Below are positions 1 through 12,344 of a stretch of 64,000 nucleotides of DNA, one piece after another. Within the stretch, counting starts at the first letter, position 1, and each line of letters opens with the position of its first letter. The position numbers were made by a program, and so were the translations under genes. Below the pieces are notes generated by a model. It was given only the letters and a program-made list of their open reading frames with translations. It did not search any database and was not told the origin of the DNA. This DNA comes from Polaribacter pacificus (lineage in GTDB: Bacteria; Bacteroidota; Bacteroidia; Flavobacteriales; Flavobacteriaceae). The DNA is taken from NCBI RefSeq assembly GCF_038024035.1, contig NZ_CP150664.1:1054001-1118000 (forward strand), written 5' to 3'.

Positions 1-356
1 CTTTTGGACTAGGAATCTTATCAAATGTTAACCTTAATGCTAAGGTAAACTACCAAGAAGACATTACTTATGGAGATGTAACTGTGGCTGCTGCCAATGT
101 GGGTCATATACTAATTGATTCTAAATGGTCTGGAACAGCACCTTTTTTAGGAATTGGTTTTGGTAGAGCGGTACCAAAAAACAGAATTGGATTGAGCTTT
201 GAGTTTGGAACCTATTTTGCAAGCTCTCCTGAGGTAAACTTAGATGCGACCAAATTATTAGGACCTACCAAAGACCAAGAAGCAGACTTACAAGATGCCT
301 TTGAAACTTTAAAGTTTATTCCAAGAGCACAAATTAAATTAGCCATCAAACTATAA
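1..356 (+). CDS. Outer-membrane beta-barrel protein, array unit 1 (5' truncated)
   Basis: This is the C-terminal ~118 residues of a small predicted outer-membrane beta-barrel protein; the reading frame is open from base 3 and the true start lies left of the window. The visible part matches the C-terminal half of the complete copies at 4893 and 7800, including the conserved stretch APFLGIGFGRAVPKNRIGLS and the end AQIKLAIKL. At the DNA level it differs from the 4893 copy by only about two silent bases in the compared region, so duplication or gene conversion is recent. The stop is followed after 10 nt by the start of a lipoprotein gene, and the same spacer sequence recurs in units 3 and 4. Alternating hydrophobic/polar segments fit amphipathic beta strands. 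The molecular function is unknown; a partner or anchor role for the downstream lipoprotein is inference. Confidence 0.85.
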   Translation, partial: FGLGILSNVNLNAKVNYQEDITYGDVTVAAANVGHILIDSKWSGTAPFLGIGFGRAVPKNRIGLSFEFGTYFASSPEVNLDATKLLGPTKDQEADLQDAFETLKFIPRAQIKLAIKL

Positions 357-366
357 TACAGAAATC

Positions 367-2073
367 ATGAAAAAATACATACATAAAAAAGCCGTCTTTG
401 CAGCAGTGACTATCCTTGGGATTATTGGCTGTACAGAATTTACAGAAAAAATTGAAGACTTTAATATTGGCGTAACCAATGCTATTTTTGAGCAAACTGC
501 AACCTTAGAACTTACAGATGTTCATGGCAACCAACAAGACATCATAGATACTGATTTTACCGTAGTCTTTAGCGGAGCAGATGCAGACAAACTGGTGAGT
601 GAAGCTGGAGAATTTGCCATCACAGAAAATGATGGTTTTATTCAATTAAGCGTAAACCCAAACAAGAGTGTAGGGGTAAAAGAATTAAACTTTGATGTAA
701 CTGTTAGTGGAGGAAGCTATAAAACAGCTACCTATGCTGTGAAAATTGCAGACACTATTTCTAAGGTAACTTTACCAATGTTAAACGAAGCTAAAACTTT
801 AGGGCTAGAAAGAAAATCAAATAGCACAAGTCTTACCAATGATGCAACCACCTCTATAGTGACTATGGAAACTTCAAAAGAAAAGTCATTGACATCAACA
901 AAAATAAGCATCCCAGTGGGCACCAAGTTTATGGACGCTAATGGAGCAGCTGTAACAGGAAGCAATTTAACAACCAACATTAAAAACATAGGTCCGTTTG
1001 GTCTAGTTTTAGACACAGAAATAGACCTTGAGCACATGGAAGTGTTTGATCAAAACAGCAATAAGATAACTAACAAAACACTAAGCTTAATTGGTTATAC
1101 AACGATAGACATCTCCTTAGATGGAAAAAAAATCACAAAATCTACTACGCCCGTTACGGTATCTATAGGTGTTGAAAACAATATCTACAATTTAGAAACA
1201 GGAGCTACATTTAAAATAGGAGACAGCTATCCTATTTACAAAAATGACCAAACGACCAACAACTGGACGTTTTATCAAAATGGTACCGTAGTAAAAGACA
1301 ATACAAATGGCATGCTTCGTATTGAGTTTACGACGACAGAAATGGTGCGTTTTGGTGCGGGTGCACTGACCGCTAAGACAGCAAACAAAAGCTTGGCCAA
1401 TGATTGTACTTCTTCAAATCAAACGAAAGATGATCAAACTTTTTTACGCGGTGGGTTTGGTGGTAGTTCCGTAATTGCTCCTGGTGGAAATGGTACCGTA
1501 ACCTTTGGCGGTGTATTTTCACCTAGTGCACAGGTAACGTTTACCCTTACAGGTGAAAGTGTATCTTCAGCTACGCTGGCAAAAACACAAAACGATGGCA
1601 TCAATCCACAAGTAACACAATTTTTACAACGCGTAACCCAGTTTTTGCAAACCTTAAACATAACAGAATTTAAGGATGCCGTACAATTACAAGTAACAAA
1701 ACATGTTGGTAGTAGCACCGTTTCTGAAGATGTTGAAAAAGAAGATATTTGTGCAGGAGTCGATGCCGTGAATGCCGCAGCTGCTTCCATACCAGATATT
1801 AAAATAGACGTTTCTGCTAACTGTAATGACAAGACACTTGTGCCAGATGGCATTGTTTTATATGTAGAAAAAGATGACCAGACTTTTAAGAATGTTGGCA
1901 CCATTAAAAACGGAAAACTAACGTTAAAAGGTTTTGAGCTAAACAAGGAGTATACTTTTAAAATAATGTACCAAGGTCAAAGCTATGTAAACAAATGGAC
2001 ATTTGATAGTGCCACATTTAAAATAGAAAATTTTAACATCCCCGCAAGTGTTTGTAATAAATTAGGATTCTAG
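367..2073 (+). CDS. Array lipoprotein, unit 1 (divergent variable domain)
   Basis: Predicted lipoprotein of 568 aa. The N-terminus has two lysine-rich turns, a hydrophobic stretch and a lipobox ending IIGC, so Cys22 is the likely lipidation site. Acidic residues follow the Cys (CTEFTEKIED), as in surface-exported Bacteroidota lipoproteins. Residues ~25-130 form a module shared by all four array lipoproteins, and ~150-310 are a second shared region with FKD/GAAVTGS-type repeats. The segment from about Cys347 to Cys462 is unlike the other copies: it contains a Gly-rich run (GGFGGSSVIAPGGNG) and a doubled VTQFLQ, and it lacks the THLSN motif found in the other three. The last ~90 aa (KIDVSANC to VCNKLGF) are conserved again. 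No known enzyme motif is visible. It is probably co-transcribed with the barrel gene before it and ends at a strong terminator. Confidence 0.85.
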   Translation: MKKYIHKKAVFAAVTILGIIGCTEFTEKIEDFNIGVTNAIFEQTATLELTDVHGNQQDIIDTDFTVVFSGADADKLVSEAGEFAITENDGFIQLSVNPNKSVGVKELNFDVTVSGGSYKTATYAVKIADTISKVTLPMLNEAKTLGLERKSNSTSLTNDATTSIVTMETSKEKSLTSTKISIPVGTKFMDANGAAVTGSNLTTNIKNIGPFGLVLDTEIDLEHMEVFDQNSNKITNKTLSLIGYTTIDISLDGKKITKSTTPVTVSIGVENNIYNLETGATFKIGDSYPIYKNDQTTNNWTFYQNGTVVKDNTNGMLRIEFTTTEMVRFGAGALTAKTANKSLANDCTSSNQTKDDQTFLRGGFGGSSVIAPGGNGTVTFGGVFSPSAQVTFTLTGESVSSATLAKTQNDGINPQVTQFLQRVTQFLQTLNITEFKDAVQLQVTKHVGSSTVSEDVEKEDICAGVDAVNAAAASIPDIKIDVSANCNDKTLVPDGIVLYVEKDDQTFKNVGTIKNGKLTLKGFELNKEYTFKIMYQGQSYVNKWTFDSATFKIENFNIPASVCNKLGF

Positions 2074-2100
2074 ATTTCATTTATTTTTATTTGAAAAAAA

Positions 2101-2124
2101 CCAGCAGCTCTGCTGGTTTTTTTT
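2101..2124 (+). terminator. Rho-independent terminator, array unit 1
   Basis: The hairpin CCAGCAGCTCTGCTGG (perfect 7 bp arms) is preceded by seven A and followed by eight T. It lies 27 nt after the lipoprotein stop. The same hairpin occurs after the unit 2 and unit 3 lipoproteins. The A-tract in front makes it potentially bidirectional. Confidence 0.9.
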
Positions 2125-2166
2125 GGTTATAAGTAAAAGTGTCTACTCGTCTTAAAACAACAGTAT

Positions 2167-2194
2167 AAAAAATTAGTAGGGGTACTAATTTTTT
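2167..2194. promoter_or_regulatory. Palindrome with GGGG loop upstream of array unit 2
   Basis: AAATTAGTA and TACTAATTT form a perfect 12 bp inverted repeat (with flanking A/T) around a GGGG loop. It sits between the unit 1 terminator and a candidate promoter for unit 2. The T-run after it would fit a second terminator, but its position just upstream of the promoter would also fit a repressor or activator operator. Units 3 and 4 have no counterpart. Confidence 0.55.
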
Positions 2195-2210
2195 TTTGTT
2201 TCTTTTTTTT

Positions 2211-2218
2211 TACTTTCG
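2211..2218 (+). promoter_or_regulatory. Candidate -7 box for array unit 2
   Basis: TACTTTCG matches the Bacteroidota -7 consensus TAnnTTTG at seven of eight positions and lies 43 nt before the barrel-gene start. A poly-T stretch with TTTG lies just upstream, but the spacing to a -33 element is short, so the call is tentative. Confidence 0.4.
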
Positions 2219-2261
2219 TACTTATAATGAAACATTTATACAACCAACTTAAAATCAACAA

Positions 2262-3002
2262 ATGAAAAAAAATTACTTTAGTATGCTAGTGGCGTTTTTT
2301 ACCCTGCTAACTACGCAAGCACAAACGGCTCCAGGCAGTACTGCTTTTACTGATACAGCTGTTACAACGACAAGCTACAACTCAGTTTTCACAAAAGACC
2401 TCTCAAACAGAAAAAACGCTATCGCAGTGTCCTTTGGTTCACCAGGGATTGGCTTTGAGTTTGCAAGAAAATTAGGAAACAAATTAACTGCCCGTGTTGC
2501 CTACCATATGTTTAGTCTAAAAGATTATGAAGCTAAAGATGTAAACATTGGAGCAGATGATGTAACCATTTTAGGAAGCCTCGAAACTCAAGTTTGGGAT
2601 TTTGGTGGTGAGTATACACCTTTTACAAAATCTTCTTTTAAGCTAACTTTTGGTGTAGGGCTTTTATCTAATGTAAACCTCAATGCAAAAGTAACCTATC
2701 AAGAAGACGTAACCTATGGTGCTGTCACCGTGACTGCAGAAAATGTAGGACATGTACTGATTGATTCTAAATGGTCGGGCGCAGCCCCTTTCTTAGGGAT
2801 TGGTTTTGGTAGAGCGGTCCCAAAAAACAGAATTGGATTGAGCTTTGAATTTGGAACTTATTTTGCAAGTTCTCCAAAGGTAACGCTAGACGCTACCAAA
2901 TTATTAGCACCGACTAAAGATCAAGAAGCCAACTTACAAGACGCTTTTGAATCTTTAAAATTTATTCCAAGAGCACAAATTAAATTAGCCATCAAACTTT
3001 AA
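2262..3002 (+). CDS. Outer-membrane beta-barrel protein, array unit 2
   Basis: A 246 aa protein with an N-terminal signal peptide (MKKNYFSMLVAFFTLLTTQAQ, cleavage likely after QAQ). The mature part is a series of alternating strands typical of small porin-like barrels, including SFGSPGIGFEF, LTARVAYHMF and the conserved block APFLGIGFGRAVPKNRIGLS near the C-terminus. It is the most divergent of the four barrel copies: the first ~45 residues are different and there are scattered substitutions after that. It lies 12 nt upstream of the unit 2 lipoprotein and the two almost certainly share a transcript. The promoter region is unrelated to that of units 3 and 4. Ligand or partner is unknown. Confidence 0.85.
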   Translation: MKKNYFSMLVAFFTLLTTQAQTAPGSTAFTDTAVTTTSYNSVFTKDLSNRKNAIAVSFGSPGIGFEFARKLGNKLTARVAYHMFSLKDYEAKDVNIGADDVTILGSLETQVWDFGGEYTPFTKSSFKLTFGVGLLSNVNLNAKVTYQEDVTYGAVTVTAENVGHVLIDSKWSGAAPFLGIGFGRAVPKNRIGLSFEFGTYFASSPKVTLDATKLLAPTKDQEANLQDAFESLKFIPRAQIKLAIKL

Positions 3003-3014
3003 TATAAGATAATC

Positions 3015-4673
3015 ATGAAAAAATACATACATAAAAAAGCCGTCATCGTAGCAGTGACAATCCTAGGGATTATAGGCTGTACAGAATTTGTAGATAAAAT
3101 TGATGACTTCAAAATCGGAATTGCTTCAACAATTTTTGACCAAAATGGCATCATTCAAATAACGGATTACAATGGCAATCAATCAGATATTAGCAATACT
3201 AATTTTAACATAACACTTAGTGGAGCTGATGCAGACAAACTAGTTAGTGAAGCAGGAGAACTTGATATTACAGCAAATCAAGGTTATATTCAGTTAAATG
3301 TAAACCCTAATAAAAGCCAAGGAGTTAAAGAATTAAATTTTAACCTAACTATTAGTGGCGGAACTTATAGAACAGCGACTTTTCCAATTACCTTAAAAGA
3401 CAGTACCTCATTTATACAAGTACAAATGGTCAATGAGGCTAATATGGTGGGAACAGACAAAGCAAGTGGTACAGCAAACTTAACCAACAATGCAACCTCA
3501 GCAGCGGTGACGGTAACTACCACCAAAGCAAAATCGACCAACACCAGTAGTGTAACTGTTGATACAGGGACACAATTTAAAGATGCTTCAGGAGCAGTTA
3601 TTAGCGGAAGTGATGTAAAAATAGCCTTAACCAATGTAGATGATCTCGGTGAAACTTTAGACCCTATATATAGTGGCGCCAAGGAATTTAAAGACGCCAA
3701 TGGCGCAGTAATTACGAATAAAATACCTGTATTAAACGGACGGACTAACATTGTGATGGAAGTAGGCACAAAACAAGTAAAACAGTTTGACAAACCAATT
3801 ACCGTAGCGATTACCATTCCAAGTTCCAGCAAAAACCCAGCAACAGGAAACACTGTACAAATTGGTGATACCTATCCTATTTACACCAATGAAGAAGGAA
3901 GTGAAACCTGGACTTATCACGGAACAGGAACAGTAGCTGCAGGTTCAGATGCCAATACCTATAAGGTACAATTTACTACGACACACTTGTCTAATTACAC
4001 ACTTGTTAGTTTTGTGGATAAACCAGATTGTGGGGAATTTAGTTTTGATATAACAGCACCTAATGCAGCTGCAGATTTTTCAGGTACATTTTATTTGCAT
4101 TTTAGTTATATTGGGCCTCATGGCACATATGCTCAAGGACTTTCAACAATTTCAGTAGCGAATAAAGTAGTTTCATTAAGTAATATTTCTAGAACCACCA
4201 ATTTTTTAAATTCAGGGAAATTCACAAAAGCTGATATCCTCAATTTGATTGCTGGCGAAAGAGTTAATTTTTATAAGCTTTTGATCTATGGGAAAGGGAA
4301 AAATAATGACCTATCATCACAAATTGCTACCCTTGCTAATTGTGAGCTTGCTATTAATATGTCAACATTAGCAGCCAACAATCCAGATGAAAAAAACATC
4401 AACATTGATGTGGCAGCAAATTGTGATGGGAATACATTGGTTCCAGATGGCTTTCCTATTTATGTAGAGCGTGCCGATGGATCATTTAGCTATGAAGGAA
4501 CCATCAAAAACGGAAAATTAACCCTACACGGTTTTGAGCTAAACAAAGAGTATAATTTTAAATCTTTTTACAAAGGTAAAAGCTACACCCATAAATGGAC
4601 ATTTACAAGCACAAGTTATGTTGATAAAAACTTTAGCATTCCTGATAATCTTTGCTCTGAGATAGGATTTTAA
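3015..4673 (+). CDS. Array lipoprotein, unit 2
   Basis: Predicted lipoprotein of 552 aa, the shortest of the four. The signal sequence with lipobox IIGC puts the acylated Cys at residue 22, followed by acidic residues. The order is: shared N-terminal module to about residue 130, shared middle region to the THLSNYTLVSF motif (~residue 325), variable domain framed by Cys339 and Cys443, then the conserved C-terminal module beginning NINIDVAANC and ending NLCSEIGF. The variable domain (STISVANKVVSLSNI region) shows no detectable similarity by eye to the other copies. No catalytic motif was recognised. The product is probably surface-exposed, which is inferred from the acidic residues after the lipid Cys and the barrel partner gene. 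Confidence 0.85.
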   Translation: MKKYIHKKAVIVAVTILGIIGCTEFVDKIDDFKIGIASTIFDQNGIIQITDYNGNQSDISNTNFNITLSGADADKLVSEAGELDITANQGYIQLNVNPNKSQGVKELNFNLTISGGTYRTATFPITLKDSTSFIQVQMVNEANMVGTDKASGTANLTNNATSAAVTVTTTKAKSTNTSSVTVDTGTQFKDASGAVISGSDVKIALTNVDDLGETLDPIYSGAKEFKDANGAVITNKIPVLNGRTNIVMEVGTKQVKQFDKPITVAITIPSSSKNPATGNTVQIGDTYPIYTNEEGSETWTYHGTGTVAAGSDANTYKVQFTTTHLSNYTLVSFVDKPDCGEFSFDITAPNAAADFSGTFYLHFSYIGPHGTYAQGLSTISVANKVVSLSNISRTTNFLNSGKFTKADILNLIAGERVNFYKLLIYGKGKNNDLSSQIATLANCELAINMSTLAANNPDEKNINIDVAANCDGNTLVPDGFPIYVERADGSFSYEGTIKNGKLTLHGFELNKEYNFKSFYKGKSYTHKWTFTSTSYVDKNFSIPDNLCSEIGF

Positions 4674-4706
4674 CACACTAACTCCATCAAACTAAACATT
4701 AAAAAA

Positions 4707-4729
4707 CCAGCAGCTCTGCTGGTTTTTTT
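4707..4729 (+). terminator. Rho-independent terminator, array unit 2
   Basis: The same hairpin as after unit 1 (CCAGCAGCTCTGCTGG) with an A-run before and seven T after, 33 nt past the lipoprotein stop. Confidence 0.9.
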
Positions 4730-4786
4730 GTTGGACTAAACACAAACATTCTATTCCCTTGATAACAAGCAGACAACATTCAAAAT

Positions 4787-4806
4787 TGTAACGCTTTTGT
4801 AACGCT
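4787..4806. promoter_or_regulatory. Two TGTAACGCT direct repeats, 11 bp period, upstream of unit 3
   Basis: TGTAACGCT occurs at 4787-4795 and 4798-4806, so the repeats are spaced by about one helical turn on the same face of DNA. This is typical of a tandem binding site for a response-regulator-like protein. The same pair occurs upstream of unit 4. The regulator is not known. Confidence 0.5.
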
Positions 4807-4849
4807 CCAAATACTGCTAGTCTGATTTTTTATTTGTTTATTTACCCTG

Positions 4850-4866
4850 TTTTACCTAGTGTAAAA
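4850..4866. promoter_or_regulatory. Palindrome TTTTAC-N5-GTAAAA upstream of unit 3
   Basis: A perfect 6 bp inverted repeat around CTAGT ends 26 nt before the barrel-gene start. It is conserved upstream of unit 4 even though the bases just after it diverge. It is a candidate operator, or a hairpin in the leader if transcription starts further upstream (a TTTATTTG box at 4829 is possible). Confidence 0.45.
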
Positions 4867-4892
4867 TATTTTTTTAACAAAAAACAGCCTTT

Positions 4893-5642
4893 ATGAAAAG
4901 TAAATTATTTCTTGTTGCTTTGGTGTGTGGCTCTGTCTTGCAGAGTTTTGCCCAACAGCAACCCACAACCAACATTAGCAATGAGTCTTCTGTTTTTAAC
5001 ACCACTACAAAGAACACAAACTCTTATTTTACAATGGATCAATCTGAACGCAAAAATGCCATCGCAGTATCTTTTGGCTCTCCAGGAATCGGCTTTGAGT
5101 TTTCAAGAAAATTAGGAAGCAAATTAACTGCTCGTGTTGCCTACCATACTTTTAATCTAAAAGATTATGAAGTTAAAGATGTTAGCATTGGATCAGAAAA
5201 AGTAAGCATTTTAGGAAACCTAGAAACCCAAGCATGGGATTTTGGTGCCGAGTACACTCCTTTTACCAACTCTTCTTTTAAATTGACTTTTGGACTAGGA
5301 ATCTTATCAAATGTTAACCTTAACGCTAAGGTAAACTACCAAGAAGACATTACTTATGGAGATGTAACTGTGGCTGCCGCCAATGTGGGTCATATACTAA
5401 TTGATTCTAAATGGTCTGGAACAGCACCTTTTTTAGGAATTGGTTTTGGTAGAGCGGTACCAAAAAACAGAATTGGATTGAGCTTTGAGTTTGGAACCTA
5501 TTTTGCAAGCTCTCCTGAGGTAAACTTAGATGCGACCAAATTATTAGGACCTACCAAAGACCAAGAAGCAGACTTACAAGATGCCTTTGAAACTTTAAAG
5601 TTTATTCCAAGAGCACAAATTAAATTAGCCATCAAACTATAA
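4893..5642 (+). CDS. Outer-membrane beta-barrel protein, array unit 3
   Basis: A 249 aa protein with signal peptide MKSKLFLVALVCGSVLQSFA and a mature part of alternating beta strands (SFGSPGIGFEFSRKLGSKLT, AWDFGAEYTPF, KLTFGLGILSNVNLNAKVNY). It is nearly identical to the unit 4 copy except in the signal peptide and a few residues, and its C-terminal half matches the truncated unit 1 copy almost base for base. It is 10 nt upstream of its lipoprotein with the same spacer as units 1 and 4. The strong conservation contrasts with the variable lipoprotein partners, which suggests a common scaffold or translocation role. That role is inference; no family-level function is known to me. Confidence 0.88.
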   Translation: MKSKLFLVALVCGSVLQSFAQQQPTTNISNESSVFNTTTKNTNSYFTMDQSERKNAIAVSFGSPGIGFEFSRKLGSKLTARVAYHTFNLKDYEVKDVSIGSEKVSILGNLETQAWDFGAEYTPFTNSSFKLTFGLGILSNVNLNAKVNYQEDITYGDVTVAAANVGHILIDSKWSGTAPFLGIGFGRAVPKNRIGLSFEFGTYFASSPEVNLDATKLLGPTKDQEADLQDAFETLKFIPRAQIKLAIKL

Positions 5643-5652
5643 TACAGAAATC

Positions 5653-7590
5653 ATGAAAAAATACATACATAAAAAAGCCGTCATTGCAGCAGTGACTATC
5701 CTTGGAGTTATTGGCTGTACAGAATTTACAGAAAAAATTGAAGACTTTAATATTGGCGTAACCAATGCTATTTTTGAACAAACAGCAGTTATTGAGTTAA
5801 CAGAGGTTTTTGGCAATCAGCAAGACATTATTGATACTGATTTTACGGTAGTCTTTAGTGGAGCAGATGCAGACAAACTGGTGAGTGAAGCTGGAGAGTT
5901 TGAAATCAAAGAAAATGATGGTTTTATTCAGTTAAGTGTAAACCCAAACAAAAGCACAGGAGTAAAAGAATTAAACTTTAACGTAACTATTAGTGGCGGA
6001 GATTACAGAAAACAAACGTATCCTATAACTTTAAAAGACACTGTTTCTTACATTACTTTAGACTTAGAAAAAGTGTATGTTCCAACACCAATAGCAGACT
6101 ATTCTGATAAAAAGGAAAGCACTAACAGCCTAAACGGAAATACCAACACAAATTCTATTATTGTTGCGACAACAAGATCAAAATCAATAAGTAAAAGTAG
6201 TATAGAAATAAAAGCAAATACAATATTTAAAGATGAAAACAATAACCCAATTTCTGGTAACTCATTAAATATCGAGCTAATTGATATTTCTACAATAGGA
6301 CAAGAAGATATCCCTAACGATATTAAAGTTTTCAAAGATGAAAACGGGATAGAAATTACAGACAAAGAAGTTTTATTAAGCAATATTACAAGCATTAACA
6401 TGAACGTAGACAATGTTGCTGTAAAAAAATTCGACAACGCTATTGAAGTTGCCATAGAGCTACCAAACACTACTTTAAATCCAATTACTGGAGCAAAACT
6501 AAAAGCAGGAGATAAGTTACCTATTTACACTAACGAGGACAACGAAAACGACTGGACATATCAAGGAGAAGGTATTGTAGAAGTAAGCAATACTGCTGGT
6601 TATTTTAACATCAAATTTAATACAACTCATTTATCAAACTTTGCAATCGTTAGTTATAACCAAATATATCCTGAATGTGATAACAGAACTTTAAATATGG
6701 ATTATAACTCAATTAATAATTTAAATGTAGAAGACGGCAGCTATATGGTTATGTTAGAACAAAATATAGTCGCTAAAAAAAGCAATAATTCTAATATATT
6801 TATCTACATTTTACAATCTAAAGGAAACAATTATGAAAGAGGTATACAATATATGAATAAAACATTTACAGATAAAAATGGGGTGGAGTATTATTACATA
6901 AAGCGACTTATTGTTTTTGATCGTATTGATGTTAAAAATGGGGTTGGACAAATAAAAAGTCGTGGTCTATTAAATGGGGAAAACACTTACTTTACTAGTC
7001 CTTCTCTCTCATCTGGAAATTATTCTAAGAAGCTACGAAAAACCATTATTGACCCAAACTACAAGCCTAGCAACAATTATAAGTATGTACTCTCTGAGTT
7101 TTCAGACCCACAAGATCTTATTGACAATGGCTTAGAGACTATTGGCGATTTTACTACCTTGGCTTCTAAAATTAGTCTTTATTCAAGAGAAATAAGCAAC
7201 AACTACACTATTTCTCATAGTCTAATATCAAATAACAACCAAGTAAGTGTTGTAGATTGTAATATTCTTGTAGATTTAAGCAGCGCTAACTACACCAAAC
7301 CAGACAATTTAAAAGACATTAATATAGATGTATCAGGTAGCTGTAATGGCAACACCATAGTACCTGATGGTTTTCCTCTTTATTACAACGTTAACGGAAG
7401 CTATAAATATGCAGGTACCATAAAAAATGGAAAGATGACTTTAAGAGGTTTTGAGCTAAACAAAGAGTATGAGTTTAAGACGGTTTTTCAAGGTCAAAGC
7501 TATGTCAATAAATGGACCTTTACATCAACTAATTTTAAAGTAGATAATTATGCAATACCACAAAGTGTCTGTGATGAAATAGGTTTGTAA
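5653..7590 (+). CDS. Array lipoprotein, unit 3 (longest variable domain)
   Basis: The longest array lipoprotein at 645 aa. The lipobox places the acyl Cys at residue 22. The first ~130 residues are nearly identical to units 1 and 4. The following region keeps the family pattern (FKDEN, GNSLNIELIDI, FKDENGIEIT, NPITGAKLKAGD, THLSNFAIVSY) but is rich in Asn, Lys and Ile and visibly more AT-rich in codon use than the flanks. The variable domain lies between Cys342 and Cys536 (~194 residues), with many Tyr, Asn and Ser. The C-terminal module begins NINIDVSGSC and ends SVCDEIGL. No enzyme motif is visible. The base composition and length suggest that the middle was acquired or diverged separately from the ends. 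Confidence 0.85.
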   Translation: MKKYIHKKAVIAAVTILGVIGCTEFTEKIEDFNIGVTNAIFEQTAVIELTEVFGNQQDIIDTDFTVVFSGADADKLVSEAGEFEIKENDGFIQLSVNPNKSTGVKELNFNVTISGGDYRKQTYPITLKDTVSYITLDLEKVYVPTPIADYSDKKESTNSLNGNTNTNSIIVATTRSKSISKSSIEIKANTIFKDENNNPISGNSLNIELIDISTIGQEDIPNDIKVFKDENGIEITDKEVLLSNITSINMNVDNVAVKKFDNAIEVAIELPNTTLNPITGAKLKAGDKLPIYTNEDNENDWTYQGEGIVEVSNTAGYFNIKFNTTHLSNFAIVSYNQIYPECDNRTLNMDYNSINNLNVEDGSYMVMLEQNIVAKKSNNSNIFIYILQSKGNNYERGIQYMNKTFTDKNGVEYYYIKRLIVFDRIDVKNGVGQIKSRGLLNGENTYFTSPSLSSGNYSKKLRKTIIDPNYKPSNNYKYVLSEFSDPQDLIDNGLETIGDFTTLASKISLYSREISNNYTISHSLISNNNQVSVVDCNILVDLSSANYTKPDNLKDINIDVSGSCNGNTIVPDGFPLYYNVNGSYKYAGTIKNGKMTLRGFELNKEYEFKTVFQGQSYVNKWTFTSTNFKVDNYAIPQSVCDEIGL

Positions 7591-7617
7591 TACACCAACA
7601 AACTAAACATTAAAAAA

Positions 7618-7641
7618 CCAGCAGCTCTGCTGGTTTTTTTT
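7618..7641 (+). terminator. Rho-independent terminator, array unit 3
   Basis: CCAGCAGCTCTGCTGG hairpin with six A before and eight T after, 28 nt past the lipoprotein stop; the third identical copy in the array. Confidence 0.9.
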
Positions 7642-7695
7642 GGGACTAAACACAACATTCTATTCCCTTGATAACAAGCAGACAACATCCAAAAT

Positions 7696-7715
7696 TGTAA
7701 CGCTTTTGTAACGCT
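7696..7715. promoter_or_regulatory. Two TGTAACGCT direct repeats upstream of unit 4
   Basis: The same 11 bp-spaced pair as upstream of unit 3 (7696-7704 and 7707-7715), so units 3 and 4 probably answer to the same regulator. Confidence 0.5.
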
Positions 7716-7758
7716 CCAAATACTGCTAGTCTGATTTTTTATTTGTTTATTTACCCCG

Positions 7759-7775
7759 TTTTACCTAGTGTAAAA
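7759..7775. promoter_or_regulatory. Palindrome TTTTAC-N5-GTAAAA upstream of unit 4
   Basis: Identical to the palindrome before unit 3, ending 24 nt before the start codon. It is kept although the sequence between it and the gene has changed, which argues for function. Confidence 0.45.
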
Positions 7776-7799
7776 TATTTCTGAATCTAAAACAATAAT

Positions 7800-8549
7800 A
7801 TGAAAAGATCATTATTTTTTCTTGCCCTAATCTGTTGCTTTGGGGTAGAGAGTTTTGCCCAACAGCAACCCACAACCAACTTTAGCAATAAGCCTTCTGT
7901 TTTTAAGACCACTACAAAGAACACAAGCTCTTATTTTGCAATGGATCAATCTGATCGCAAAAATGCCATTGCAGTATCTTTTGGCTCTCCTGGAATTGGC
8001 TTTGAGTTTGCAAGAAAATTAGGAAGCAAATTAACTGCCCGTGTTGCCTACCATACCTTTAATTTAAAAGATTATGAAGTTAAAGATGTTAGCATTGGAT
8101 CAGAAAAAGTAAGCATTTTAGGAAATCTAGAAACCCAAGCATGGGATTTTGGTGCCGAGTACACTCCTTTTACCAACTCTTCTTTTAAATTGACTTTTGG
8201 ATTAGGAATCTTATCAAATGTTAACCTTAACGCTAAGGTAAACTACCAAGAAGACATTACTTATGGAGATGTAACTGTAGCTGCTGCCAATGTGGGTCAT
8301 ATACTAATTGATTCTAAATGGTCTGGAACAGCCCCTTTTTTAGGAATTGGTTTTGGTAGAGCGGTACCAAAAAACAGAATTGGATTGAGCTTTGAGTTGG
8401 GAACCTATTTTGCAAGCTCTCCTGAGGTAAACTTAGATGCGACCAAATTATTAGGACCTACCAAAGACCAAGAAGCAGACTTACAAGATGCCTTTGAAAC
8501 TTTAAAGTTTATTCCAAGAGCACAAATTAAATTAGCCATCAAACTATAA
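7800..8549 (+). CDS. Outer-membrane beta-barrel protein, array unit 4
   Basis: A 249 aa barrel protein with signal peptide MKRSLFFLALICCFGVESFA. From the QQQPTTN segment onward it is almost identical to the unit 3 copy; the few changes include Phe to Leu in the SFELGTYF strand. The signal-peptide region has diverged, as in unit 2. It precedes the unit 4 lipoprotein by 10 nt. Function is unknown; see unit 3 for the shared architecture. Confidence 0.88.
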   Translation: MKRSLFFLALICCFGVESFAQQQPTTNFSNKPSVFKTTTKNTSSYFAMDQSDRKNAIAVSFGSPGIGFEFARKLGSKLTARVAYHTFNLKDYEVKDVSIGSEKVSILGNLETQAWDFGAEYTPFTNSSFKLTFGLGILSNVNLNAKVNYQEDITYGDVTVAAANVGHILIDSKWSGTAPFLGIGFGRAVPKNRIGLSFELGTYFASSPEVNLDATKLLGPTKDQEADLQDAFETLKFIPRAQIKLAIKL

Positions 8550-8559
8550 TACAGAAATC

Positions 8560-10395
8560 ATGAAAAAATACATACATAAAAAAGCCGTCATTGCAGCAGC
8601 GACTATCCTTGGAGTTATTGGCTGTACAGAATTTACAGAAAAAATTGAAGACTTTAATATTGGCGTAACCAATGCCATTTTTGAGCAAACAGCCGTACTA
8701 GAGTTAAAAGATGCCTTTGGCAACCAACAAGGAATTGTTGATACTGATTTTACGGTAGTCTTTAGCGGAGCAGATGCAGACAAACTGGTGAGTGAAGCTG
8801 GAGAATTTGAAATCAAAGAAAATGATGGTTTTATTCAGTTAAGTGTAAACCCAAACAAAAGTACAGGAGTAAAAGAATTAAACTTTGACGTTACTATTAG
8901 CGGAGGTTCTTATAAAACAAGCACCTTCCCTGTAAGCTTAAAAGACACGGTGTCTAAAATAAACTTGACCATGGTGGATGAGAGCAAAATCTACAAAGGA
9001 CAAAACGAAGCTAGCAAAACACTAGGCTTAACAAACAATGCAACCACAACAGCCACAACAGTAAAAACAAGTACCAATGGCTCTTTAAGCACCAGTGCAA
9101 TAACAATCAAAACAGGCACACAATTTAAGGATGCGGCAGGTGCTGTTTTAACAGGTAGCGATGTAAAGATTGCCGTGACCAATACTGATGCACTGAGTGA
9201 TGTTTTACCTAGCACAAGTGTTTTTACCTTTAAAGATGATAAAGGAGTTGCTATTACAGGAAAAGAAGCAACGTTTTTAGCGGGGAATACCCAAATTACC
9301 ATGGATGTAAATGGTACTCCTGTAAAAAAGTTTAACAATGCCATTGATGTTGCCATAGAAATTCCGAGTGATGCCACCAACCCAACAACAGGCAATCCAG
9401 TACAGCTAGGAGATACGTTTCCTGTGTACACCAATGAAGACGATAGTACAGATTGGACCTATCACGGATTAGGCACTGTTATTGCAGGTGCTACAGCAGC
9501 CACATTTAACATCAGTTTTGAAACCACTCACCTGTCTAATTATAGCGTGGTGAGCTTTAAAGATACCGATTGTACAGTTTATACAGATAACGTTACCGCT
9601 AATAATTTAGCACCAAACTACAACGCAACTTTTAATATACAACTCCGTGTTAAAACCGAAAATGACTATAGTTTTTTAGATATTCGAAACGGTGAAAAAT
9701 TTATTAACATATTTGAAATCGTAATTAAAAATGGTAAAGTAGTATCTTCACATGCCCCTAGGATGATTAAACTTATATGGGATGAATACTCTGAAGGAAC
9801 AGAAGAGTATAATAAATATTTCAATATGTTTATGAATGCTGGTGTGGATATATCTCGCCCCTTTTATAAGGAACATGTTAAAGGCATCAAAAAACTTCTT
9901 GCTTCTGGAAATGATGTTTATACTGATACTTATTTAACTGGCGGTTTTATGGGCAGTGATAAATGGACAACCACAACGGAATACCAACTCTATGTTAAGT
10001 CTCAAGGTGTTACTTACCGTACCAATCTATCAAACATTGCAACAATTGCCAATTGTGAATTTAATATTAATCTAACCCAAGATGGTACAGATTACTTTAA
10101 AATTGGTACACTAAAAAACATTGCTATTGATGTCGCGGCAAGTTGTGGAGAAAACATCATTAAACCGGATGGCTTTCCACTATATATAGAAAGAGAGAAT
10201 GGCATATTTAGTTATGAGGGCACCATAAAAGAAGGTAAAATGACCTTAAAAGGTTTTGAATTAGGCAAGGAGTACAACTTTAAAACAGTGTACAAAGGAA
10301 AGGCGTATTATCATAAATGGACTTTTGATACCGAGAATTTTAAAATCACAGATTTTGAAATCCCTGCTAACCTTTGTTCTGAAGTTGGTTTCTAA
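8560..10395 (+). CDS. Array lipoprotein, unit 4
   Basis: Predicted lipoprotein of 611 aa; lipobox VIGC, acyl Cys22. The N-terminal module closely matches units 1 and 3. The middle region has the clearest form of the family repeats (GTQFKDAAGAVLTGSDVKIA, FKDDKGVAITGK, NPTTGNPVQLGD) and the THLSNYSVVSF motif near residue 325. The variable domain lies between Cys338 and Cys499 (~160 residues) and differs from the other copies. The conserved C-terminal module runs from AIDVAASC to NLCSEVGF. This unit closes the array and has its own, different terminator. Confidence 0.85.
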   Translation: MKKYIHKKAVIAAATILGVIGCTEFTEKIEDFNIGVTNAIFEQTAVLELKDAFGNQQGIVDTDFTVVFSGADADKLVSEAGEFEIKENDGFIQLSVNPNKSTGVKELNFDVTISGGSYKTSTFPVSLKDTVSKINLTMVDESKIYKGQNEASKTLGLTNNATTTATTVKTSTNGSLSTSAITIKTGTQFKDAAGAVLTGSDVKIAVTNTDALSDVLPSTSVFTFKDDKGVAITGKEATFLAGNTQITMDVNGTPVKKFNNAIDVAIEIPSDATNPTTGNPVQLGDTFPVYTNEDDSTDWTYHGLGTVIAGATAATFNISFETTHLSNYSVVSFKDTDCTVYTDNVTANNLAPNYNATFNIQLRVKTENDYSFLDIRNGEKFINIFEIVIKNGKVVSSHAPRMIKLIWDEYSEGTEEYNKYFNMFMNAGVDISRPFYKEHVKGIKKLLASGNDVYTDTYLTGGFMGSDKWTTTTEYQLYVKSQGVTYRTNLSNIATIANCEFNINLTQDGTDYFKIGTLKNIAIDVAASCGENIIKPDGFPLYIERENGIFSYEGTIKEGKMTLKGFELGKEYNFKTVYKGKAYYHKWTFDTENFKITDFEIPANLCSEVGF

Positions 10396-10637: not shown

Positions 10638-12344
10638 ATGAGACTAAAATTAATAGGATTCTTTTTTCTATGTGGTTGTATGGCATCATTTGCTCAATAC
10701 AAAGAAATGCTACATAAACCTTATAAAGAAAAGGTGGATGCTATTGATGTATTGTACAGAAACACCATTAATAAAGGGAGACAAGATTCTTTATTTATAA
10801 ATGCTTACACACATGAAATGGAACAATGGGCCTTAGCCAACAACGATAAAGAACTCGCATTAGAAGCAAGATTACTAAGAGCCTATGCAAGTTGGTTTCT
10901 CGTAGGACATTTAAGACCTCAATTAACACAAAACCTAATTGACATTGCCAATTTAGGAGAAAAAGATAAAATTCTACACATAGAACAACGTGCAATAAAG
11001 GTTATTATTAGTCATTATTGGAGCCTCAATAATTTTGAAAAAGCCTTTGAGTGGGTTTTATTATCAATTAAAACCCTAGACAGAATAGCTCCAGAAGATT
11101 TTCCAAATATGGCAGATCATTTAAATTATATAGGGCAATATTATTACTATTTCAAAGATTATAACAATGCACTAATCTATTATAAAAAATCTAGTAATCT
11201 TAAAAGAACGAGTTTTAATGCCTTACATGTTCTTGCTGCTCAAAACACAGTGGGTTTATGTTATCAAAAGTTAGAAAAGTTTGAATTGGCAAAAACTTAC
11301 TTTTTAAAGGTAATAGAAGACGACTCAGAATTACAAAGTAGCACATGGAAAGCAATTGCAAGCGGAAATTTGGGGTACAACTACTATTTAGAAGGCAATT
11401 TTGAAAAGGCCATCCCATTGTTTAAAAAAGACATTGAAACCGCATTATCAAACAACGATTTTGGACTTGCTTCTGGGTCAAGCACTCCCCTAGCTGATAT
11501 CTATATTAAACAAAATAAACTATCAGAAGCAAAACAACTTATACAAAATAGCAGACAGTATATTAAACAGTCTAAACAAACTGATAGGCTTCGACATTTA
11601 TATCCTGTAATGAGCAAATGGTATGCTGCAAACAAGCAGTTAGAGCTGAGTACTCTCTATTTAGATTCAACCATGTCTGCTATAAATGCCTACAATGAAA
11701 AATACAGTAGCATTAAATTGCTACGAGCTAATCAAAGAGTTGAAGCAAAAGAGCGAGAATTACAGGTTGGGAAACTAAAAACAGAAAACCAATTAAAAAT
11801 CACTCAGCGTAATTTTATCATTTTTATTATTGCAATCTTATTAATAGTGAGCGTATTCTCTTTTTGGTTTCGAAACCAGTTTCTACTAAAAAAACAACAG
11901 ATTAAAGAATTAGAACTTCAAAACACCCAAAGAGCTCTAAACGATTCTAAGAATCAATTAAAAAAGCTAGCCACTAAGGTTCGTCAAGATAGCAACCTCA
12001 TTAGCAAATTAAAAAAAGAAAAAGCTAACAATGACAGTTCAGAAAAACTTTCTAAATTAAAGTCTAAAAACATTTTAACCCAAAATGACTGGAAACAATT
12101 TCAAGATCAATTTAACAAAGCTTATCCAAATTTAATTCCCTCAATAACAAAACAACACCCAAACTTAAGCCAGGCAGAAATACGCTGTTTGTGTTTAGAA
12201 AAATTAAAGCTTTCCAATAATGAAATGAGTTTGGTTTTGGGTGTATCTTCTAACACTATTAGGGTTACTAAACACCGCATTCGAAAAAAGCTAAATAGAG
12301 AAAGTAATGAAACTATAGATGAACTGCTTAAGAATATAAAGTAA
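10638..12344 (+). CDS. Membrane-anchored TPR protein with LuxR-type DNA-binding domain
   Basis: A 568 aa regulator with an unusual but known Bacteroidota layout: signal peptide (ending ASFAQ), a periplasmic part of TPR-like helical repeats (~residues 120-360, e.g. YNNALIYYKKSSNL, KLEKFELAKTYFLKV, EGNFEKAIPLFKKDI), one transmembrane helix (~392-411), a cytoplasmic coiled coil (~412-470) and a C-terminal helix-turn-helix of the LuxR type (LSQAEIRCLCLEKLKLSNNE, then VSSNTIRVTKHRIRKKL). It should sense something outside the inner membrane and act on transcription directly. It stands alone, right after the barrel/lipoprotein array and on the same strand but beyond a strong terminator. Control of the array is a plausible inference, not shown by the sequence. 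Confidence 0.88.
   Translation: MRLKLIGFFFLCGCMASFAQYKEMLHKPYKEKVDAIDVLYRNTINKGRQDSLFINAYTHEMEQWALANNDKELALEARLLRAYASWFLVGHLRPQLTQNLIDIANLGEKDKILHIEQRAIKVIISHYWSLNNFEKAFEWVLLSIKTLDRIAPEDFPNMADHLNYIGQYYYYFKDYNNALIYYKKSSNLKRTSFNALHVLAAQNTVGLCYQKLEKFELAKTYFLKVIEDDSELQSSTWKAIASGNLGYNYYLEGNFEKAIPLFKKDIETALSNNDFGLASGSSTPLADIYIKQNKLSEAKQLIQNSRQYIKQSKQTDRLRHLYPVMSKWYAANKQLELSTLYLDSTMSAINAYNEKYSSIKLLRANQRVEAKERELQVGKLKTENQLKITQRNFIIFIIAILLIVSVFSFWFRNQFLLKKQQIKELELQNTQRALNDSKNQLKKLATKVRQDSNLISKLKKEKANNDSSEKLSKLKSKNILTQNDWKQFQDQFNKAYPNLIPSITKQHPNLSQAEIRCLCLEKLKLSNNEMSLVLGVSSNTIRVTKHRIRKKLNRESNETIDELLKNIK

Follow-up and report, generated by a model that had tools for sequence, protein, structure and literature searches.

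The first 10,395 nucleotides (nt) of a 64,000-nt stretch of Polaribacter pacificus DNA (assembly GCF_038024035.1, contig NZ_CP150664.1, positions 1,054,001-1,118,000; G000:C1:1054001-1118000, with G000 denoting the host genome), hereafter the window, are occupied by four tandem gene pairs. As proposed in an initial annotation of this DNA, each unit consists of a gene for a small outer-membrane barrel followed by a gene for a large lipoprotein, all on the plus strand. The barrels of units 1 to 4 comprise 249, 246, 249 and 249 amino acids (aa), the lipoproteins 568, 552, 645 and 611 aa, and the two genes are separated by 10, 12, 10 and 10 nt, respectively. In window positions, the features are the following:

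1..356, plus strand: barrel 1, 3' part (start at L001:19607 = G000:C1:1053607)
367..2073, plus strand: lipoprotein 1, without His-Leu-Ser (H-L-S); E-M-V instead at residues 325-327 (window 1339-1347)
2095..2122, no strand assigned: terminator-like hairpin 3' of unit 1, AAAAAACCAGCAGCTCTGCTGGTTTTTT type
2262..3002, plus strand: barrel 2, the divergent copy
3015..4673, plus strand: lipoprotein 2, H-L-S at residues 324-326 (window 3984-3992)
4701..4728, no strand assigned: terminator-like hairpin 3' of unit 2
4893..5642, plus strand: barrel 3, the modelled copy, CarO-like
5653..7590, plus strand: lipoprotein 3, H-L-S at residues 326-328 (window 6628-6636)
7612..7639, no strand assigned: terminator-like hairpin 3' of unit 3
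7800..8549, plus strand: barrel 4
8560..10395, plus strand: lipoprotein 4, the modelled copy

Barrels 1, 3 and 4 were described as nearly identical, and the comparison with barrel 3 agrees (98% for barrel 1, 92% for barrel 4), with barrel 2 at 75%. The model of barrel 3 shows a CarO fold with eight strands, a strand count that is our own reading of the model, and the score against the NCBIfam CarO equivalog is 33 bits, far under the cut-off of 300. Among 67 barrels scanned with Pfam, no SusCD- or PorP/SprF-type barrel family was found, and the only matches at E<=0.01 were OMP_b-brl (13) and Legionella_OMP (2). No match to a well-described uptake pair, which would have spoken against the initial interpretation, was obtained. 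The predicted fold nevertheless raises the alternative of small-molecule uptake, in which the barrel would admit small amino acids or similar compounds bound or delivered by the lipoprotein. CarO passes glycine and ornithine in liposomes, but the same source, as far as its excerpts go, describes it as lacking a continuous channel (PMC7573547), and the low equivalog score also speaks against this explanation, which we consider unlikely.

The barrel alignment was used to scan 84,980 species genomes, and the best 80 of 233 relatives were kept, which gave 79 loci. L035 and L059 were dropped for want of an open barrel frame, leaving 77; L034, whose barrel stretch contains a stop, does not enter alignment A3. 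Alignment A2 comprises 63 lipoproteins, and unknown residues (X) were written as A before some searches. Contrary to the initial annotation, which saw the lipoproteins conserved only at their two ends, a recognisable central domain lies between them: across the six pairs of window lipoproteins, identity amounts to 57-81% in the N-domain and 51-64% in the C-domain, against 27-54% in the central domain and 6-16% in the segment after it. For lipoprotein 4, the inner parts are located as follows:

8992..9570, plus strand: GAIN/ZU5-like domain, residues 145-337 (predicted fold)
9529..9537, plus strand: triad His324-Leu325-Ser326, with self-cleavage predicted between Leu325 and Ser326
9571..10104, plus strand: hypervariable segment (head), residues 338-515, bounded by Cys338 and Cys499

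Residues 145-337 of lipoprotein 4 are predicted to form a GAIN/ZU5 beta fold, and the H-L-S/T motif is situated where the last two strands meet. In GAIN-GPS domains, an H-[LF]-[ST] triad occupies the cleavage turn before the last strand, and cysteines stand beside the triad in GPS. Such GPS cysteines are missing here, no window copy having any cysteine in the domain, and TTH precedes the predicted cut site at the place of the CxH motif. The Pfam ZU5 and GPS models did not find the array; over the whole genome at E<=10, each gave one chance match elsewhere. The triad is present in 55 of the 63 members (49 HLS, 6 HLT), including three of the four window copies, and by a looser pattern in 86 of 106 sequences, a set with duplicates such as REF_L4 and P0084. 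It is likewise found in 28/40 sequences kept out of profile building and persists after thinning (39/53 at 50% identity, 25/36 at 35%). With weighted conservation of 0.79, 0.79 and 0.72, its residues rank in the top 45 of 611 columns, under several glycines and the cysteines. Lipoprotein 1 of the window (EMV), L023, L024, L028, both L141 lipoproteins and other distant members are devoid of it.

The strongest rival to a self-cutting lipoprotein is the same arrangement without the cut, i.e., a GAIN/ZU5-like fold that keeps the triad for packing in a surface receptor or adhesin that stays uncut and is partnered by a barrel. Ankyrin ZU5 domains, which are not known to cut, score as high as GAIN domains against the lipoprotein 4 model, and members without the triad persist. 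Moreover, the sole family exceeding its cut-off on this domain is FAM171 (PF10577; cut-off 31.2 bits), a group of animal membrane proteins, and the solved FAM171A2 has no triad at the aligned place. The exact order of H-L-S/T in 25 of the 36 members left at 35% identity exceeds what packing alone would demand of the polar His and the Ser/Thr. Accordingly, the uncut version is regarded as a real possibility, albeit one we lean against. The FAM171 matches above the cut-off belong to L042 (43.4 bits), L050 (35.4) and L041 (32.5), and 20/63 members match at E<=0.01, while none of window copies 1-4 does so even at E<=1. Apart from the question of cleavage, these three bacterial proteins may help to trace where FAM171 came from or to which fold class it belongs.

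Every window lipoprotein contains exactly five cysteines. The first is the lipid cysteine, the second follows closely on the GAIN-like domain, the third lies towards the end of the variable segment, and the C-domain holds the last two. Among the 63 members, 50 have both the second and the third, 8 have neither and 5 have one of the two. The two C-domain cysteines are invariant in the alignment of 63, although some distant members of the wider profile alignment have the last one unaligned. From this pattern we infer two disulfides, one of them closing the base of the head. As a raw count bearing on an acidic export signal such as that of surface-exposed Bacteroidota lipoproteins, the 12 residues after the lipid cysteine include at least two acidic ones in 56/63 members and hold on average 3.1 acidic and 1.3 basic residues.

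The substitution patterns within the array differ sharply between its parts. In comparisons of units 1, 3 and 4, barrel codons 51-249 show a synonymous divergence of 0.06-0.09 and barrel codons 1-50 one of 0.07-0.25. In the lipoprotein, the value is 0.04-0.08 for codons 1-40, 0.62-0.84 for codons 41-143 and at least 1.45 past codon 143; the body of the unit 2 barrel stands at 0.73-0.79. Divergence is thus low in the barrel and the lipoprotein start, which are being homogenised, and high beyond, the lipoprotein bodies being old and divergent. A misassembly or a simple tandem duplication of recent date would suit the near-identity of barrels 1, 3 and 4, but either is almost certainly the wrong explanation: the genome is a single contig, the lipoprotein bodies reach a synonymous divergence of 1.4 or more, and the heads of lipoproteins 4, 3 and 2 are each nearest to a different relative, which neither process yields.

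In the 300 pairs formed by 25 close lipoproteins, identity averages 70% in the N-domain, 48% in the GAIN-like domain, 20% in the head and 60% in the C-domain, and six pairs reach at least 50% in the head. One of them, P0101-P0104, displays a head of 89% identity versus 73%, 75% and 67% in the N-, GAIN-like and C-domains with visible borders, and in this alignment one head swap is clearly seen. No clear swap is discernible in the pair of lipoprotein 3 and P0083 (head 85%, N-domain 88%, GAIN-like 93%, C-domain 76%) or in the remaining four. An exchange of the variable segment also agrees with the mosaic pattern of divergence among the four units. A variable segment past a cut site could also serve antagonism, the self-cutting domain freeing it as an effector against neighbours, and ZU5 domains of bacterial polymorphic toxins have been proposed to act as release peptidases (PMC3482391, section 8). 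However, a conserved C-domain follows the segment, which is therefore not the protein's end, and no toxin or immunity family was found in Pfam or NCBIfam (a defence library was not searched), so that antagonism is deemed very improbable.

The relation between barrel and lipoprotein was examined with 54 pairs, ten loci being omitted (one synthetase, five weakly aligned, four near-duplicates). Barrel distance correlates with that of the N-domain (rho 0.33; 0/1000 Mantel permutations) and weakly with that of the C-domain (rho 0.14; 2/1000), and shows no correlation with the GAIN-like domain (rho 0.05; 211/1000) or the head (rho 0.06; 149/1000). Instead of contact, the N-domain correlation could stem from linkage to the adjacent gene.

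Across the phylum, the pairing is frequent. In neighbour clustering of the best 80 relatives, one lipoprotein family neighbours the barrel in 59 of 77 loci, with 53 members as the next gene downstream and 8 as the next gene upstream, mostly at gaps below 70 nt. Of 296 evenly drawn Bacteroidota genomes with a completeness of 90% or more, 53 contained the barrel, 29 the lipoprotein and 28 both, and 37/43 lipoprotein places lay within 400 nt downstream of a barrel. The co-occurrence is significant for genomes that are, however, not independent (Fisher p 1.7e-23). As the same two families adjoin across the phylum, their pairing exceeds chance. Of the barrel genomes without this lipoprotein, 24/25 fall into one family (f17). 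The same clustering gave no recurring metabolic gene family beyond local synteny, a further point against small-molecule uptake.

Several loci depart from the common layout. The lipoprotein comes first and the barrel second in seven of them (L014, L015, L017, L020, L022, L025, L027), and the loci of reversed order belong mainly to Cryomorphaceae-like or Flavobacteriales metagenome-assembled genomes. Five Bacteroidales-type loci (L068, L073, L075, L076, L077) carry a different lipoprotein of 300-335 aa 3' of the barrel; thus, the barrel has more than one lipoprotein family as companion. These short proteins start acidic after the cysteine (CSSDDGDE, CSSSSDDDN, CSSDDDN, CDGEE, CGSDGDD), and none of the four scanned with Pfam matched at cut-off. 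The neighbour in L075, an asparaginyl-tRNA-synthetase-like protein, was excluded from the counts, and L074, L079 and L084 have no lipoprotein 3' of the barrel on that strand. Tandem or doubled forms occur in G386, with two pairs in tandem on contig C33 (L141 and L142 belong to this genome) and one barrel with two lipoproteins on C72, and a second lipoprotein lies about 2 kb further on in G251 and G425.

The host genome is one contig of 2.72 Mb, and its named relatives by barrel are Polaribacter. The suspicion that the array runs past the left edge of the window was correct in that barrel 1 starts 394 nt outside it, but no further unit follows: an M1-peptidase-like gene (932 aa; the name is our reading) lies directly 5' of barrel 1, and a whole-genome search at E<=10 returned these four barrels and no fifth. 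Because near-identical hairpins follow units 1, 2 and 3, each unit probably forms a separate operon, although terminator-like sites in general occur here near chance frequency (10 versus 8.3). Unit 4 is followed by a TPR protein gene with an HTH-like region at its C-terminus (10638-12344) and then by an 817-aa gene that we read as a dehydrogenase E1. In L007, L008, L010 and L021, this 817-aa gene adjoins the lipoprotein with no gene between, and the TPR gene of the window is thus foreign to those loci; it may have arrived with this array or represent a separate insertion.

The survey of unit number in relatives that the initial annotation had suggested finds the barrel in 21 of 146 genomes of the genus and four units in this genome alone, three G104 rows of the count being pieces of one broken gene. 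The M1-like gene is present in 55/58 genomes searched. Of the 30 M1-like loci returned, 23 have the E1 gene adjoining without a barrel between, six carry a barrel at the site and one ends too early; G020, the nearest by M1-like gene (69%), has an empty site. Such presence and absence at one site, together with a hypervariable, swapped head, would be unusual for nutrient uptake. A broken pair with internal stops occupies the same site in G104 (L103, L108, L109).

Taken together, the locus is best read as a receptor or adhesin at the cell surface whose hinge is self-cut and whose heads vary, and as a whole explanation we hold this two-part device of barrel and self-cut lipoprotein to be about evenly poised between right and wrong. 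The barrel, CarO-like by predicted fold, would be the constant part in the outer membrane, and the lipoprotein would be held by its lipid, with the N-domain probably touching the barrel as their correlated divergence suggests. After export, the GAIN/ZU5-like domain would fold and, to judge from fold and triad, probably cut itself between Leu and Ser/Thr, the two fragments being predicted to stay together non-covalently. The second fragment, comprising the variable, probably disulfide-clasped head and the C-domain, would bind a ligand, surface or partner and could be pulled off or shed. Recombination, as the substitution patterns show, homogenises the barrel and the lipoprotein start while the divergent bodies are kept, and the four copies provide this strain with four different heads. 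The display or binding apparatus with exchangeable modules proposed initially remains the best guess, one segment exchange having been seen; a surface location and a binding role of the head are what we infer beyond it. A bolder version, rather unlikely in our judgement, is a bacterial counterpart of adhesion receptors with a force-sensitive, self-cut latch and exchangeable heads: once a head bound to a surface, partner, prey or phage is pulled, the second fragment would leave, and at the outer membrane the barrel-bound first fragment would change state.

ZU5-type domains in bacteria are not new in kind, as Zhang et al. (2012) already unite ZU5, GPS and Nup96/98 domains, name the CxH motif, predict ZU5 autopeptidases in bacterial polymorphic toxins and report related domains in other large bacterial surface proteins (PMC3482391). 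Bacterial origins of ZU5 autopeptidases are discussed in an excerpt of PMC8195603, and a 2026 paper on bacterial teneurins has a similar theme (PMC13018210). No bacterial GAIN domain appears in passages of a 2025 paper on the evolution of G-protein-coupled receptors (GPCRs; PMC12716839) or of a 2026 adhesion GPCR review (PMC13197933), and titles and abstract beginnings yielded no description of this barrel-lipoprotein pair. The route of Bacteroidota surface lipoproteins across the outer membrane is called unknown in an excerpt of PMC11885536. If the cut is true, Bacteroidota hold a widespread, simple GAIN relative on a lipoprotein that is assayable in ordinary laboratory strains. The fold that underlies adhesion-GPCR mechanosensing would then have a bacterial setting, and the question of how a dedicated barrel may serve a surface lipoprotein would have a test case. 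Lipoprotein 1, triad-less beside intact copies, is a natural control. For free-living marine bacteria, the array is also a neat case of variable middles between constant ends.

Among known systems, SusCD and BtuB-BtuG likewise co-encode an outer-membrane barrel with a lipoprotein, but their barrels are large TonB-dependent transporters, whereas the one described here has about 249 aa and eight strands. CarO of Acinetobacter baumannii differs in that the small barrel is here co-encoded with a large lipoprotein. The FAM171 (astroprincin) ectodomain resembles bacterial members in sequence across the GAIN-like domain, yet FAM171A2 has no triad at the aligned place and the window copies are unmatched. 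The predicted fold and the H-L-S/T position are shared with the ZU5/GAIN-GPS autopeptidase superfamily (adhesion GPCRs, polycystin-1, PIDD), in which CD97 is cut before the Ser in SSFAIL. There, the second fragment spans the membrane, whereas here the first would be lipid-anchored; in addition, the partner is a small barrel, the domain contains no cysteine, TTH replaces CxH, and the Pfam ZU5 and GPS models miss the window copies.

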